Below are positions 4,417 through 33,066 of a DNA stretch of 64,000 bases, piece after piece; position 1 is the stretch's first letter, and each line of letters begins with the position of its first letter. The translations under genes and the position numbers were made by a program. The stretch is from Rossellomorea sp. y25 (GTDB lineage Bacteria; Bacillota; Bacilli; Bacillales; Bacillaceae_B), in NCBI RefSeq assembly GCF_038049935.1, contig NZ_CP145886.1, positions 4,015,001-4,079,000 on the forward strand, read 5' to 3'. The notes under the pieces are model-generated. The model did not search any database. It worked only from the letters and a program-made list of their open reading frames with translations, and was not told the origin of the DNA.

Positions 4417-4538
4417 CCTCTTATCTTTCAGGCAATCGCCTGCAGGAATTAGCACCTTTTCATGCGACGCATTACTGCGTACATGAAGGTTGCCGGGTTT
4501 CATCGGGCCTAGTCCCTCCACCTCTCTGGATAAGAGCA
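4417..4538 (-). promoter_or_regulatory. SAM-I (S-box) riboswitch controlling metY-metX
   Basis: The minus strand reads CTCTTATCCAGAGAGGTGGAG, then GGGACTAGGCCCGATGAAAC, CCGGCAACC, a variable hairpin, GGTGCTAATTCCTGCAG and AAAGATAAGAG. These are the P1-P4 signature blocks of the S-box, with P1 closed by CTCTTATC/GATAAGAG. The aptamer is preceded by a sigma-A promoter and followed by an intrinsic terminator, so SAM binding should terminate transcription before metY. Confidence 0.97.
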
Positions 4539-10039: not shown

Positions 10040-10138
10040 CCATTGTTTTCGGTAACCCGGCCATCGTTATTCTCATTTAAAATGGTAGACCCGTGGTTTT
10101 GCGTCCTAATTTTTCAATTAGTTTGCCTTTGTCGAAGG
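10040..10138 (-). promoter_or_regulatory. Cyclic di-GMP-I (GEMM) riboswitch
   Basis: The minus strand reads GGCAAACTAATTGAAAAATTAG (P1b stem CTAATT/AATTAG closed by a GAAA tetraloop), then GACGCAAAACCACGGGTCTA, a second hairpin, and ATGGCCGGGTTACCG. These are the diagnostic conserved blocks of the GEMM-I aptamer, including the tetraloop-receptor partner. TATAAT at 10172-10167, with a weak -35, is a plausible promoter. The downstream terminator suggests transcriptional control of the 9686 gene; whether ligand turns it on or off cannot be read by eye. Confidence 0.93.
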
Positions 10139-23296: not shown

Positions 23297-24165
23297 CTGA
23301 AAGTGCCAGGCACTATTATCATGTTTGGTGCCTGGCACTTTTAACTCGTTTTGTGCCTGGCACCCATTATTATTTAATTACGTCCCAATCTTTCGTATTC
23401 AATTTGGTGTCCACATAAAATTTGTACTTATCATGAGGATTATCACCAAGGTTTGTTAATATCTTTGTGGGATCTACAAGATTCTTGTAACCGACTTTTA
23501 TAAAGGTTTTATAGCTGCTCCAATGATAATCTTCCGGGCTTTTTACATACCTGGACCTTACAGGATTCAGATGGATATAACTACTGGTATCCATCATCTG
23601 CTTCCAGTTTTTGATTAACTTGGCATAATAGCGATCTTGAAATACATGACCAATATAATCGTACCTTTTATTAAAATACTTAGCGTAGTTAGAGTGGAGG
23701 TAATGGATGATTTGAGACAAAGGGTGTTCAATGGTTTCAATTATGAGGTGGATATGATTTGGCATGAGGCAATATGAGTGAAGAATGAAGGGGATTTTCT
23801 CCTTTGTTTTTTGTATCAGGAGTAAATAGTATTGATAATCTTTTCGGTCACGGAAGAGGTTGTTCTTTCTATTTCCACGGGCAGTCGCATGGTATATAGC
23901 TCCAGGATACCAAATTCTAGGCTTTCGAGGCATTGAATCTTCCTTTCTTCTTTGAGTATTTTAGACAAATAATTACATTCGACATTTAGATTAAAAAAAC
24001 CTCTTTTTTGTCGGATTGATGGGTGTCCTACGTGAAAGTTGGTGCCAGGTACAAATTGACCCTTTGGTGCCAGGTACTTTTCTGCCTGTTTGTGCCTGGC
24101 ACTTTTCCCCTAATCGGTGCCAGGCACCAAATCATGCTTCCGTGCCTGGCACCCTATCAAGAACG
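23297..24165. mobile_element. RAYT transposase gene flanked by palindromic repeat arrays
   Basis: Left array (about 23307-23363): three GTGCCAGGCAC/GTGCCTGGCAC units. Right array (about 24040-24162): GGTGCCAGGTAC twice, then GTGCCTGGCAC, GGTGCCAGGCACC and GTGCCTGGCACC. Between them lies one Y1-type transposase gene. The arrangement is that of REP-associated tyrosine transposases and their REP/BIME sequences. The same palindrome recurs at 38288-38330, 43795-43832 and 44059-44097. Confidence 0.8.
23370..23933 (-). CDS. REP-associated tyrosine transposase (Y1_Tnp/RAYT)
   Basis: 187 aa, intact. The N-terminus PRKPRIWYPGAIYHATARGN is typical of RAYT/TnpA_REP proteins. The HUH metal motif HIH lies at about 60-62 in MPNHIHLII and the nucleophile Tyr is near residue 102 in GHVFQDRYYAKLI; SSYIHLNPVRSRYV is another conserved block. 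Such enzymes nick single-stranded palindromic ends. It lacks IS200 left/right ends of its own but sits among GTGCCAGGCAC palindromes. It lies in a stretch inserted between hpf and fliT compared with B. subtilis. Confidence 0.88.
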   Translation of the reverse strand: MPRKPRIWYPGAIYHATARGNRKNNLFRDRKDYQYYLLLIQKTKEKIPFILHSYCLMPNHIHLIIETIEHPLSQIIHYLHSNYAKYFNKRYDYIGHVFQDRYYAKLIKNWKQMMDTSSYIHLNPVRSRYVKSPEDYHWSSYKTFIKVGYKNLVDPTKILTNLGDNPHDKYKFYVDTKLNTKDWDVIK

Positions 24166-28175: not shown

Positions 28176-29030
28176 ATGGAGAAGTTCCTGAATCTATCTT
28201 CTATTCAACGAAATTTACTAGTAGGAAGTATTCTGGGTGATGGTGAAATCACAAAGATATACCGTAACTCACGCAGGAAAAATCATAGTTATCGTGAACA
28301 TTATGGTTTAGAACAAGAGAATTATCGTATCTGGAAAGCCACCTTCTTCCCAGGTCTCTTCTACCTTACTAAGAAAAGCCAAACCATGCGTTCAAAATCT
28401 GATCCCCTTTTCACTGAGTTATTTCCTTACTTCTACAGTAATCGCTCTAAGCAAGTCCCGATAAAACTTCTAAAATACTGTACCTCCCCCTACTTCTTAA
28501 CAGCTCTATATCTAGATGACGGTTCTCTATCAATCTCTAAAAGAATTAATCATCGAAATAAAAAGATTTACTTAACTCCTCACATTTACTTATACCTTCA
28601 AAGCTACCCCAAAGAGCAACTTGAAGTATTAAAACAACACATTTTAGATACCTTTCAAATTGAATTTAATCTAAACAAAAGAAGAGATGGTCACGGTTAT
28701 ATTTTAAAAGGAACCTCAACTGACCTAACATACAATTTCCTGAATTTACTTTCCCCAATTACTTTGACTTGTGAAAGTATGTACTATAAATCCAATTGGG
28801 AATGGAGGCTAAAACGCGAGGAGCAAGAGTTGTTAAAACAATTTCCTAATTATCAAATCGTCGCTTCTTCGTCGAGTAGATTCAAAAATTTTACTGAAGA
28901 CGAAGTAAGAAAAATAATATTACTGAAGAGGAGTGGTGTAAAAGATAAAGACATTGCGAAAAGTTTATGTAGAAGCTATTGGTCTGTAGTGTATAAGATA
29001 CGAGAATTACGACTAGAGGGGATATTGTGA
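28176..29030 (+). CDS. Free-standing LAGLIDADG homing endonuclease
   Basis: 284 aa, intact, with GAAAGGAG upstream. Two LAGLIDADG helices are visible: LLVGSILGDGEI (residues 14-25) and FLTALYLDDGSLS (107-119), each ending in the catalytic acidic residue, so a monomeric two-motif enzyme is likely. The C-terminal 50 residues (FTEDEVRKIILLKRSGVKDK, then DIAKSLCRSYWSVVYKI) look like a helix-turn-helix. It is on the strand opposite to, and convergent with, hag, which contains two group I introns, so it is not encoded within either intron. Its likely target is the uninterrupted flagellin insertion site. It is AT-rich compared with neighbours, consistent with transfer. Confidence 0.88.
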   Translation: MEKFLNLSSIQRNLLVGSILGDGEITKIYRNSRRKNHSYREHYGLEQENYRIWKATFFPGLFYLTKKSQTMRSKSDPLFTELFPYFYSNRSKQVPIKLLKYCTSPYFLTALYLDDGSLSISKRINHRNKKIYLTPHIYLYLQSYPKEQLEVLKQHILDTFQIEFNLNKRRDGHGYILKGTSTDLTYNFLNLLSPITLTCESMYYKSNWEWRLKREEQELLKQFPNYQIVASSSSRFKNFTEDEVRKIILLKRSGVKDKDIAKSLCRSYWSVVYKIRELRLEGIL

Positions 29031-29095: not shown

Positions 29096-30648
29096 TTAAC
29101 GAAGAAGTTGTAAAACTCCTTGTGGTTGTTGGTTCGCTTGCTTTGCGACTATGTCTTTCAATCATAGAATAGACTATATCTTCACCCTTGTATGTATGGG
29201 GCTGGGCACTTCGAACAGGATTTCCTGCCCTACGAGATTCATAGTCATAGCTTTGCCTTAGACCGTGTTCTCTAGTCGTTGAACCTTCTCCAGAGTTTCC
29301 TCACAGGAGCTTGGCTGCTGATTATCCATTGTTGCATCTCTATCATTTTCCGACCATTCCGCCTACTGTTTCCAGTTTCGTTGTGGTTGATAAAGCTTTA
29401 GGAAGTTCCAGCAATTCACCCAGTAATACTCCAGCTCGTTACCAAACTGGACGCCCTCTAATCAACTATTTCAGAAGTTGTAAAACTCCTTGAGGCATTT
29501 GATTGGATTGAGCCAACATTGCTTGCGCTGCTTGAGAAAGAATAGAATTCTTTGTTTGGTTCATCATTTCTTTCGCCATCGTGCGAACATTTACTTTCAT
29601 AAATGACCAGACTATATCTTCACCCTTTAGCAGGGGTTGGGCACTTCGGATTCACAATGCTGATGACCATTGTTTCACCTACGGATTTCATCACCATGAG
29701 CTTAGCTTTTAGATGGTCTATCCTAGTCGTTGAACCTTCTCCACTCTTTCAAGACAGGAGCTTGGCTGCTGATTGCCCAATCTCTTCTTTTGTTAAAGCC
29801 ATCACGCTTGTCGTTTCCAACTACGTTGTGGCAAGAAAAGCTCTAAGGGGTTTCCAGCAATTCACCCAATTATGATCTCTAGCCGTTACCAGCCAGGACG
29901 ACTGTGCTTGTCACTGCTAAGCAGCTAAAGCATAATCTACGTCACGGATACGTGATTCTGCGGCAGTTAGGTTTTCGGAGGAGTTATCTAAGTTGCTAAT
30001 TGTGTGGTCAAGACGGTTTTGATTAGCTCCAAGTTTAGAACGAGTTGCAGAAACTTTCGCGATTGCTGCATCTACCAATGCAACATCAGCATCAAAAGAA
30101 GTACCATCTGCTACTATTCCGCTAACTGTTAACGAAGCAGAATCAAAACCCTCAGTCGCTACTCCTGAATCAATTGTTAGAGTAAGCTGTTGTCCAATAT
30201 TTGCTCCAATTTGCAAATCAGCCGTATAACTTCCATCAAGTAGCTTTTTACCGTTAAATTCTGTACGGTCAGCAATACCATCTAACTCAGCATTCAACTC
30301 AGTAATTTCATCCTGAATTGCTGTAAGGTCATCACCTTCAAGTGTACCAGCATTTCCTGCTTGAACAACTAACTCACGCTGACGTTGTAAAATAGCATGA
30401 GTTTCATTTAAAGCACCTTCAGCGGTTTGAATTAAAGAAATACCATCTTGAGCATTTTTAGATGCTTGGTCTAAACCACGAATTTGACCACGCATTTTCT
30501 CAGAAATAGACAGACCCGCCGCGTCGTCGCCAGCTCGGTTAATACGTAAACCTGAAGATAATTTCTCCATTGAACTTGATTGTGCTGAATTTGCATTACC
30601 CAACTGACGATAAGTATTCAAAGCCGCAATATTATGATTAATTCTCAT
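29096..30648 (-). CDS. hag: Flagellin, interrupted by two group I introns (exons 30648-29935, 29579-29511, 29140-29096)
   Basis: Start ATG 30648 with AAGGAGG. Exon 1 encodes 238 aa (MRINHNIAALNTYRQLGNAN ... ESRIRDVD). Without splicing it reads YALAA and stops at 29917, losing the C-terminal D0 helix. Exon 2 encodes MAKEMMNQTKNSILSQAAQA then MLA. Exon 3 encodes QANQQPQGVLQLLR and stop. Joined, they give a normal 275-aa flagellin. Boundaries are inferred from flagellin conservation, a G at each intron end and an equal 8-nt distance from the P9 hairpin to both 3' splice sites; the P1 pairing was not resolved. If only intron 1 is removed, exon 2 reads on to QSNQMPQGVLQLLK and a stop at 29466. A sigma-D promoter precedes. 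The leader has GGA motifs, one in the ribosome-binding site, suited to CsrA binding. Confidence 0.88.
29141..29510 (-). ncRNA. Group I intron 2 of hag, with an internal duplicate of the flagellin 3' coding end
   Basis: 370 nt by inferred boundaries. Group I core elements on the minus strand: GGGTGAATTGCTGGAA (29420-29405), AATCAGCAGCCAAGCTCCTG (29323-29304), GTTCAACGACTA (29284-29273) and AAGATATAGTCT (29182-29171), followed by a P9-like hairpin CTATG...CATAG and G at 29141. The core closely resembles intron 1. Its first 45 nt encode QSNQMPQGVLQLLK and a stop in frame with exon 2, so unspliced RNA still gives a complete flagellin. Confidence 0.82.
29580..29934 (-). ncRNA. Group I intron 1 of hag
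   Basis: 355 nt by inferred boundaries. Core elements on the minus strand: GGGTGAATTGCTGGAAACCC (29867-29848), AATCAGCAGCCAAGCTCCTG (29774-29755), GTTCAACGACTA (29735-29724) and AAGATATAGTCT (29620-29609), the P, Q, R and S consensus blocks of group I introns. A P9-like hairpin CATTTA..GAAA..TAAATG and terminal G (29580) precede the ATG GCG of exon 2. No ORF inside. The upstream exon ends in T (GTA GAT), as required at group I 5' splice sites. Confidence 0.88.
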
Positions 30649-32160: not shown

Positions 32161-33066
32161 TTATCGTAAGAAGTCCATTAATGTCGGCTGCATGATTCTT
32201 GCTCCTACGCTAAGGGCGGCACGGTGGACACTTTCCTGGGTTTTCAGGTCGGTGATCACTCTTTCGATATCTGCGTCTTCGTTATCCGAGAGAATACGGC
32301 TGGCGGTCACTTCCTGCTGAGCCAATCGGTCATCGATCATTTCCAGCCTATTGTATCGGGCGCCCAGGTCTGAACGTTCCGCTGAAAGTGTATTCATCAC
32401 TTCATCCAAGTTTTCAAGTTCCGTATCAAGGCTTGAAACATCTCCCGATTCTAATGCTTTTTGGATTGAGTGTACTGTGTTGAATAGTTGTTGACTAAAA
32501 ACATTTGATGGGTTGGCGTTTGCTTTTAGTGATACGCCCTGTGAAACTTCAATGGCGTATTCACCATTTGTTCCATTGAGTATGTTATCAGCTACCCTCG
32601 GGGCGGTCCCATCTGCAGGTGATCCATCCTTCATTGGAGAATTTCCGACATCTGTTCCATTAAAAATGTAACGGCCTGCCACTTTTGTTTCAGCCACACT
32701 GACAAGGTCCTTTTTTATTTGTTCAATTTCAACGGCCACCGCTTTACGGTCTTCTTCACTGAGGGATCCGTTCTTCCCTTGCAGTGTCAATTCCCGAACA
32801 CGCTGCAGTCCCTGATTGGCATGATCAATCCCGGACTCTGAATTCTCCATCCATAAGTAAAGTTCTGATAGATTCCTTTTATATTGTTCGATTTCCGTTA
32901 GATTGGAGCGATAGAACATACCCTTCATCGCAACGACAGGATCATCGGAAGGCTTGGTAATCTTCTTCCCCGTCGCCAACTGGTCCTGTAGTTGCCCCAT
33001 CCGCCCATAAGAAGAACTGAGATTTCTCATCGAGTTCGCCGTCAGCATACTTTGCGTTACGCGCAT
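32161..33066 (-). CDS. flgL: Flagellar hook-associated protein 3
   Basis: 301 aa of the flagellin-like fold. N-terminal MRVTQSMLTANSMRNLSSSY and the conserved TGKKITKPSDDPV, plus the C-terminal D0 helix (VITDLKTQESVHRAALSVGA). FlgL joins FlgK to the filament. 14 nt downstream of flgK in the flgM-flgN-flgK-flgL operon. Confidence 0.95.
   Translation of the reverse strand: MRVTQSMLTANSMRNLSSSYGRMGQLQDQLATGKKITKPSDDPVVAMKGMFYRSNLTEIEQYKRNLSELYLWMENSESGIDHANQGLQRVRELTLQGKNGSLSEEDRKAVAVEIEQIKKDLVSVAETKVAGRYIFNGTDVGNSPMKDGSPADGTAPRVADNILNGTNGEYAIEVSQGVSLKANANPSNVFSQQLFNTVHSIQKALESGDVSSLDTELENLDEVMNTLSAERSDLGARYNRLEMIDDRLAQQEVTASRILSDNEDADIERVITDLKTQESVHRAALSVGARIMQPTLMDFLR

Follow-up and report, generated by a model that had tools for sequence, protein, structure and literature searches.

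We suggest, and consider likely, that the two predicted group I introns in the flagellin gene hag of Rossellomorea sp. y25 each encode a fail-safe against missed splicing: intron 1 an ssrA-like degron for ClpXP and intron 2 a substitute for the flagellin C-terminus. Flagellin genes of thermophilic Bacillus were already known to carry group I introns; what is new here is the reading frame inside each intron. From sequence we infer that the introns splice, that the -AA tail acts as a degron and that filaments can be built with the substitute C-terminus. All coordinates refer to the window, the stretch of 64,000 nucleotides that was analysed. The genome itself is a single contig of 4.63 Mb, and was compared with its genus group of 36 genomes.

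The hag gene and its introns

The hag gene lies on the minus strand of the window at 30648-29096, with its ATG at 30648. Exon 1 (29935-30648, codons 1-238) was recognised by its ORF and by Pfam PF00669/PF00700 and runs to RIRDVD, a boundary set by the empty sites of relatives. The unspliced frame continues as RIRDVD-YALAA-stop, with the stop at 29919-29917, and the abnormal stop pointed out in an earlier sequence-only reading is thus borne out by the ORFs of the minus strand. The closest database match of this unspliced product is a Priestia flexa flagellin (93% identity). Joining the three exons gives an intact flagellin of 275 aa with the C-terminal end QANQQPQGVLQLLR.

Intron 1 (29580-29934, 355 nt, minus strand) is inserted at site 1 after a U (GAU|) and ends with G (CACG|AUG). 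It is followed on the same strand by exon 2 (29511-29579, 23 codons, MAKEMMNQTKNSILSQAAQAMLA), intron 2 at site 2b (29141-29510, 370 nt; after U, GGCU|, and with final G, AAAG|CAAGCG) and exon 3 (29096-29140, QANQQPQGVLQLLR and stop). Exons 2 and 3 were assigned from the sequences of relatives and from the joined exons. Both introns show the group I hallmark of a final U in the 5' exon, paired with G in P1, and a final G in the intron. The junctions, GAT|TATGCT...GCACG|ATGGCG for intron 1 and GGCT|CAATCC...GCAAAG|CAAGCG for intron 2, are exact because relatives lacking one or both introns provide natural empty sites, and the gap lengths of 355 and 370 nt given earlier are correct to the nucleotide.

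The covariance model RF00028 covers both gaps over its full length (1-253), at 29929-29588 with 87.1 bits and at 29485-29149 with 72.0 bits against a cut-off of 50 bits, which agrees with the earlier proposal that both gaps are group I introns. Searching the whole genome with RF00028 gave no further match besides these two. Weak matches of about 277 nt (35-45 bits) occur in many genomes of the genus, e.g. at G023:C1:3666332-3666609. The P1 of intron 1, whose folding had been proposed as a check, was obtained as expected: GAUU and the following UGCUU pair with AAGCACAGUC. The element AGUCGUC (29897-29903, minus strand) contains intron 1's internal guide sequence and pairs with GAU|U at the 5' splice site in the minimum-energy fold of P1-P2. 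For intron 2 the minimum-energy fold contains the distal P1 stem and not the four splice-site pairs, which were paired by eye only. If the 5' splice site of intron 2 were instead placed behind AUGCCU, where six pairs to GGGCGU were seen by eye, it would likewise be in frame. The 3' boundary of intron 2 is supported by seven loci of the class that have an in-frame stop within the last few intron codons, after which exon 3 still starts with QAN. No ORF longer than 90 aa was seen inside either intron.

It is well supported by these comparisons that hag is a gene with two predicted group I introns near its 3' end, and that intron 1 would have to be spliced for a complete flagellin. For intron 2 splicing seems dispensable, as a whole C-terminus that could replace the normal one is encoded at its 5' end. 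The dependence on splicing that had been claimed for intron 1 is retained, as judged by sequence; an unspliced intron 2 would not truncate the protein.

Among the 36 genomes of the genus, the flagellin gene has both introns in seven, intron 1 alone in 11, intron 2 alone in six and, by the search used, neither in 11; G014 and G032, without a flagellin match, are included in the last number, and G030, where hag is split over contigs, was counted apart. A DNA search with the intron-1 core matched 166 of 397 Bacillales genomes, in 69 of 135 genera, and 76 of 398 genomes of the class, some of which are shared with the Bacillales set. Not all of these matches are at site 1, as site-2 and reductase introns were also found. 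The first site-1 set comprised 89 loci with 79 distinct P1 regions, and AGUCGUC was present in all 89. The intron-2 arrangement follows downstream in 36 of them; with 7/36 genomes of the genus and 36/89 site-1 loci, two introns in one hag gene are common and not, as first supposed, unusual.

The tree of site-1 introns was based on the core, with P1 left out, and contained 105 distinct introns, including those of the class and four clostridial loci. We rechecked 14 loci without a site-1 row: L050 and eight copies of loci already in the set have the tail YALAA or YTLAA, while L139, L158, L173, L174 and L192 have no site-1 structure and were left out, as was one row of L145 that was too short. 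Of 28 additional loci we kept those in which the host frame could be read.

The tail encoded by intron 1

The in-frame tail YALAA, our proposed ssrA-like degron, occupies 29920-29934 (minus strand), and the TAG stop of the unspliced product lies behind it at 29917-29919, in the P1 loop. The sequence-only reading had seen YALAA and the stop and had overlooked the conserved ssrA-type character of the -AA end. Among the 105 distinct introns, which come from across Bacillota, 98 tails end in AA, five in VA, one in AV and one in AS (L129), so AA, VA or AV are found in 104/105. The most frequent tails are YALAA (59), YAEAA (8), YVLAA (5), YTEAA (4) and YALVA (4); others include YDLIAA, YVLTAA, YASAA, YSFAA, YAKAA, YASVA and YALAV, and YALAASAA where the first stop is lost. 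Parsimony on the core tree gave 1/1/46 changes at codon positions 1/2/3 of the last codon (-1), 0/5/17 at codon -2, 14/9/10 at codon -3 and 0/1/14 at the stop, which is thus kept as a stop triplet. Tail length changed three times, by whole codons, and the loop after the stop 32 times. Of 48 ORFs of at least 150 aa in the window, the unspliced hag frame is the only one that ends in AA.

The tmRNA tag of the host is GKTNNNLALAA, as compared with the tail YALAA. Among 30 host genomes the tag could be read by ARAGORN in 21, and all 21 tags end in -AA. A strict match of the tail to the tag of each host is not supported; G219, with the tag FAFAA and the tail YTEAA, shares only the -AA. A passage of PMC9382460 names LVA, AAV and SVA as variants of a critical LAA end, AAV being used for ClpXP degradation; YALVA, YASVA and YALAV are tails of this kind in our set. 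We infer that the tail marks unspliced flagellin for ClpXP. It should be noted that the Leu of LAA, the motif named in that passage, is missing from YAEAA and from the clostridial EEIAA.

Clostridia carry flagellin introns 4 nt upstream of site 2 of Bacilli, with the junctions AUGCU|U...GGAAG|AGCACAGG (pairing read by eye). At this site, 2a, the tails are unrelated in sequence to those of site 1 (ERMAA, EEMAA, EEIAA, EGIAA, EGMAA, DEMAA, EGLAA, EVLAA, EAPAA and EVRWAA), and they end in -AA in 16 of 16 distinct readable loci; 12 of these loci come from one class, Thermoanaerobacterium-like genomes, and have much of their sequence in common. L318 was not readable at site 2a and was left out. Three database searches pointed in the same direction: the best 120 matches of each, with our own translation P0121 excluded, held 359 distinct proteins. 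Among those listed, 282 are full length and 39 end at site 2, all 39 with -AA, including one at site 2b (AQPFAA). Another 34 listed proteins have site-1 tails, 31 with -AA and the others with YAEAV, YAEVA and YALVA. P0042 and P0053 look shortened and were not counted, and two proteins are unclassified. The database and genome counts are not independent, as proteins and loci overlap.

As controls we read the introns of ribonucleotide reductase genes, found with the same DNA query in other Bacilli. Of 20 control regions 13 were readable, L292, L293, L296 and L297 having only an ORF unlike the host and L295, L301 and L303 having none. None of the 13 ends in -AA; in 12 (L286-L291, L294, L298, L299, L300, L304 and L305) the unspliced frame is GGSR-stop, as in L300, or GGSRR-stop, with no tail, and L302 has a longer tail, KFECLVYKKTS. 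Pfam identified the reductase host frames of L286, L289 and L021 (Priestia), and the remaining frames were assigned from the end that they have in common. The reductase introns of Priestia give the tails KVA, KTA, K and K, and L227 ends in K; a tail with a final A is not unique to flagellin, as the two Priestia introns ending KVA and KTA show. A multi-copy intron of G662 ends SQRI in the two of five copies that were read. With -AA missing from these controls, the -AA rule is confined to flagellin hosts as far as the introns that we read are concerned. Two side observations may be added: the five G662 copies of one group I intron have identical RF00028 scores and are perhaps IStron-like, and L291 has, at 1837-2835 on the minus strand just ahead of its second intron core, a LAGLIDADG_3 ORF with weak helix-turn-helix matches.

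The tail and its stop might serve only to halt the ribosome before it disturbs the intron core and so let splicing proceed, the residues themselves being irrelevant. The stop at site 1 is near-invariant, and the review PMC3984707, in a passage on introns with an in-frame stop, of which there are many, views the stop as aiding folding and splicing. We find this explanation unlikely, however, as Ala-Ala at two sites whose RNA is unrelated would not be expected from it, and as the related reductase introns mostly stop at once (12/13 readable loci) with no tail.

The Ala codons also overlap an RNA helix. In most introns their positions 1 and 2 make up a hairpin arm, which pairs 5/5 with a downstream stretch in 70/105, and the last codon has its position 3 in the loop. 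RNA pairing may therefore account for part of the 1/1/46 bias, and because of this overlap codon bias alone is no proof of coding selection. At the neighbouring codon -4, second in the tail, 3/3 positions are paired with the P1 partner in 101/105 introns, with compensatory sets including GCT/AGC, ACT/AGT, GAC/GTC and GTC/GAC; RNA pairing of this kind has shaped codons -5 and -4. One could thus argue that the tails are by-products of RNA structure, and that GCUGC, the hairpin arm at the tip of P1, happens to read Ala-Ala. The 5/5 arm pairing and the covariation of codon -4 agree with such an origin, and it predicts the free variation of the one last-codon position that sits in the loop. Against it stands the subset of 61 introns with equal loops, where the stem positions of the Ala arm changed 0, 0, 1, 3 and 5 times (9 in total) and those of the partner arm 2, 5, 6, 8 and 15 times (36 in total), a contrast that is clear but moderate. 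In the same subset the loop-located stop changed 0/0/6, to other stops only, and so remains a stop. In the full set there are 26-41 changes per position after the stop, a number inflated by loop-length changes, and the comparison is weaker with equal loops. Further, the hairpin is mostly broken (at most 3/5 pairs) in 12 introns, 11 of which still end in -AA, and the introns at site 2a reach -AA through other sequences. From the codon counts, the equal-loop subset and the introns with broken hairpins we judge an origin of Ala-Ala in RNA structure alone to be quite unlikely. These comparisons point instead to a tail that is selected for what it encodes, over and above any RNA pairing.

The substitute C-terminus in intron 2

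The first 14 codons of intron 2 (29469-29510, minus strand) read QSNQMPQGVLQLLK and are followed by a stop at 29468-29466; relatives usually end LLR. Of the 75 distinct loci with intron 2, 72 contain such a 14-codon copy of the C-terminus. Exon 3, the presence of which was a selection criterion, stands in all 75, and the pattern used for the intron-2 loci of the order set under-counts them. Seven loci of the class that apparently had no exon 3 were found to have it on recheck. Two flagellin loci with a spare C-terminus of the intron-2 type are also present in G422, which is a more distant genome.

By codon position the intron copy changed 81/25/216 times and exon 3 35/12/110 times, and VLQLL is invariant in 72/72 intron copies. 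The mean nucleotide identity of the intron copy to exon 3 is 0.68. The exceptions are L146 (QFEQIAA), L174 (immediate stop) and L183 (an unrelated tail of 23 residues) in the order set, and L265 (QFEQVA) and L275 (QLLVA) in the class set. Of these five tails, three again resemble ends of the SsrA type, while L174 and L183 fit neither the degron nor the spare-C-terminus class at site 2b.

The last residue of the intron-borne C-terminus is the same as that of exon 3 in L169, L176, L148, L186 and others (G/G, Q/Q), and conversion or matched selection is therefore suggested. Were the copy a passive leftover of insertion or of gene conversion, such agreement, frequent in the QLLG and QLLQ lineages, is what conversion would give. 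The copies have diverged to the identity of 0.68 and yet the intron copy shows the 81/25/216 pattern, VLQLL is retained throughout and exon 3 is kept as well, which makes a passive leftover very unlikely in our opinion. By its pattern of changes the copy in intron 2 is instead kept under coding selection beside an intact exon 3, in 72/75 loci.

Just past exon 3, outside intron 2 and convergent with hag, lies an ORF resembling a LAGLIDADG_2 homing endonuclease (28176-29030, plus strand; PF03161, 60 bits). Homologs occur in 5/36 genomes of the genus, one of them broken in two, and always beside a hag gene with intron 2 or, in G030, beside hag exon 3. Intron 2 possibly has its homing partner in this ORF, although the ORF lies outside the intron.

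That hag is a pseudogene or an assembly artefact, in a strain without a working flagellin here, is suggested by the interruption of the frame in the DNA but is extremely improbable and was rejected, as many relatives have the same architecture with intact exons and as hag is the only flagellin found in the genome, next to what we take to be other flagellar genes. No intact second flagellin, which by the sequence-only reading would have made this copy a pseudogene, turned up: the sole other PF00669 match in the 4.63 Mb falls in the ORF at 32161-33066, presumably flgL from its usual place in the gene order. Elsewhere in the window we noted a SAM riboswitch (4418-4536, minus strand), a c-di-GMP-I-GGC riboswitch (10047-10136, minus strand) and, near the flagellar cluster, an ORF (23370-23933, minus strand) that we assume, from a motif we recognised, to be a REP-associated (Y1) transposase.

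Proposed mechanism and relation to known systems

We propose that the start of each intron, consisting of the 5' strand of P1 and its loop, is a short coding element that would be read on the not-yet-spliced message. At site 1 a ribosome on unspliced message would add Y-A-L-A-A and stop inside the P1 loop. The C-terminal helix, which is missing from this product, is needed by filaments. The -Ala-Ala-COOH end would imitate the tmRNA/SsrA tag, and ClpXP would most likely degrade the truncated flagellin. At site 2b, what is added would be a substitute for the last 14 residues, and the unspliced message would still give a complete flagellin; intron 2 would in this way solve the same problem of missed splicing by providing the missing end. 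It is plausible that flagellin, unlike the reductase, needs a fail-safe because of its abundance and the harm done by truncated flagellin.

Insertions P7.1/P7.2 are a feature of group IA2 introns. Flagellin introns of thermophilic Bacillus and Geobacillus were described by Hayakawa and Ishizuka (2009, 2012), as cited in PMC3984707 and PMC4853749; a passage of the latter calls the thermophile intron IA2, and the same paper describes it as temperature dependent, with a possible regulatory role. The likeness to our case is a group I intron in hag, and the citing passages mention no degron-like tail, substitute C-terminus or Bacillota-wide breadth. With the tmRNA/SsrA tag and the poly-alanine tails of RQC, the intron-1 tail would share a C-terminal -Ala-Ala as a signal for proteolysis; it differs in being encoded by an intron of one gene and made by ordinary translation, whereas those tails are added by tmRNA or RqcH. 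In the passages of PMC3984707 on the c-di-GMP group I ribozyme of C. difficile and on IStrons, the outcome of splicing alters the product of the message, as we propose here, but that ribozyme acts with a ligand at the ribosome-binding site, and in hag the outcome would be a different C-terminus. The reductase introns (L021, L286, L289 and others) have a related core, found by the same DNA query or by RF00028, and differ in their unspliced ends, with -AA in none of the 13 readable loci of other Bacilli and with KVA, KTA, K and K in Priestia. Our search of an open-access library found no published account of an intron-encoded degron or substitute C-terminus.

Further, we speculate that the introns have been domesticated as a switch between splicing and translation, in which a race of ribosome and ribozyme would settle for every message if degraded or full-length flagellin results, and in which the SsrA mimic would set flagellin output according to conditions, e.g. 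temperature. Degron introns would have arisen at two flagellin sites, and site 2b would later have exchanged its degron for a spare C-terminus. We regard this extension as possible and tentative, and rather doubtful as a whole.

It is an old problem that ribosomes arrive before splicing when introns lie in highly translated bacterial genes. Here the intron sequence itself appears to hold an answer, either a disposal tag made by translation or a reserve copy of the end of the gene, selected in many species. Database flagellins that end in -YALAA, -YAEAA or -EEIAA are probably unspliced readings and not real proteins. The arrangement would amount to tmRNA tagging in encoded form, and the question of how cells tolerate self-splicing introns can be put to a simple test with it.
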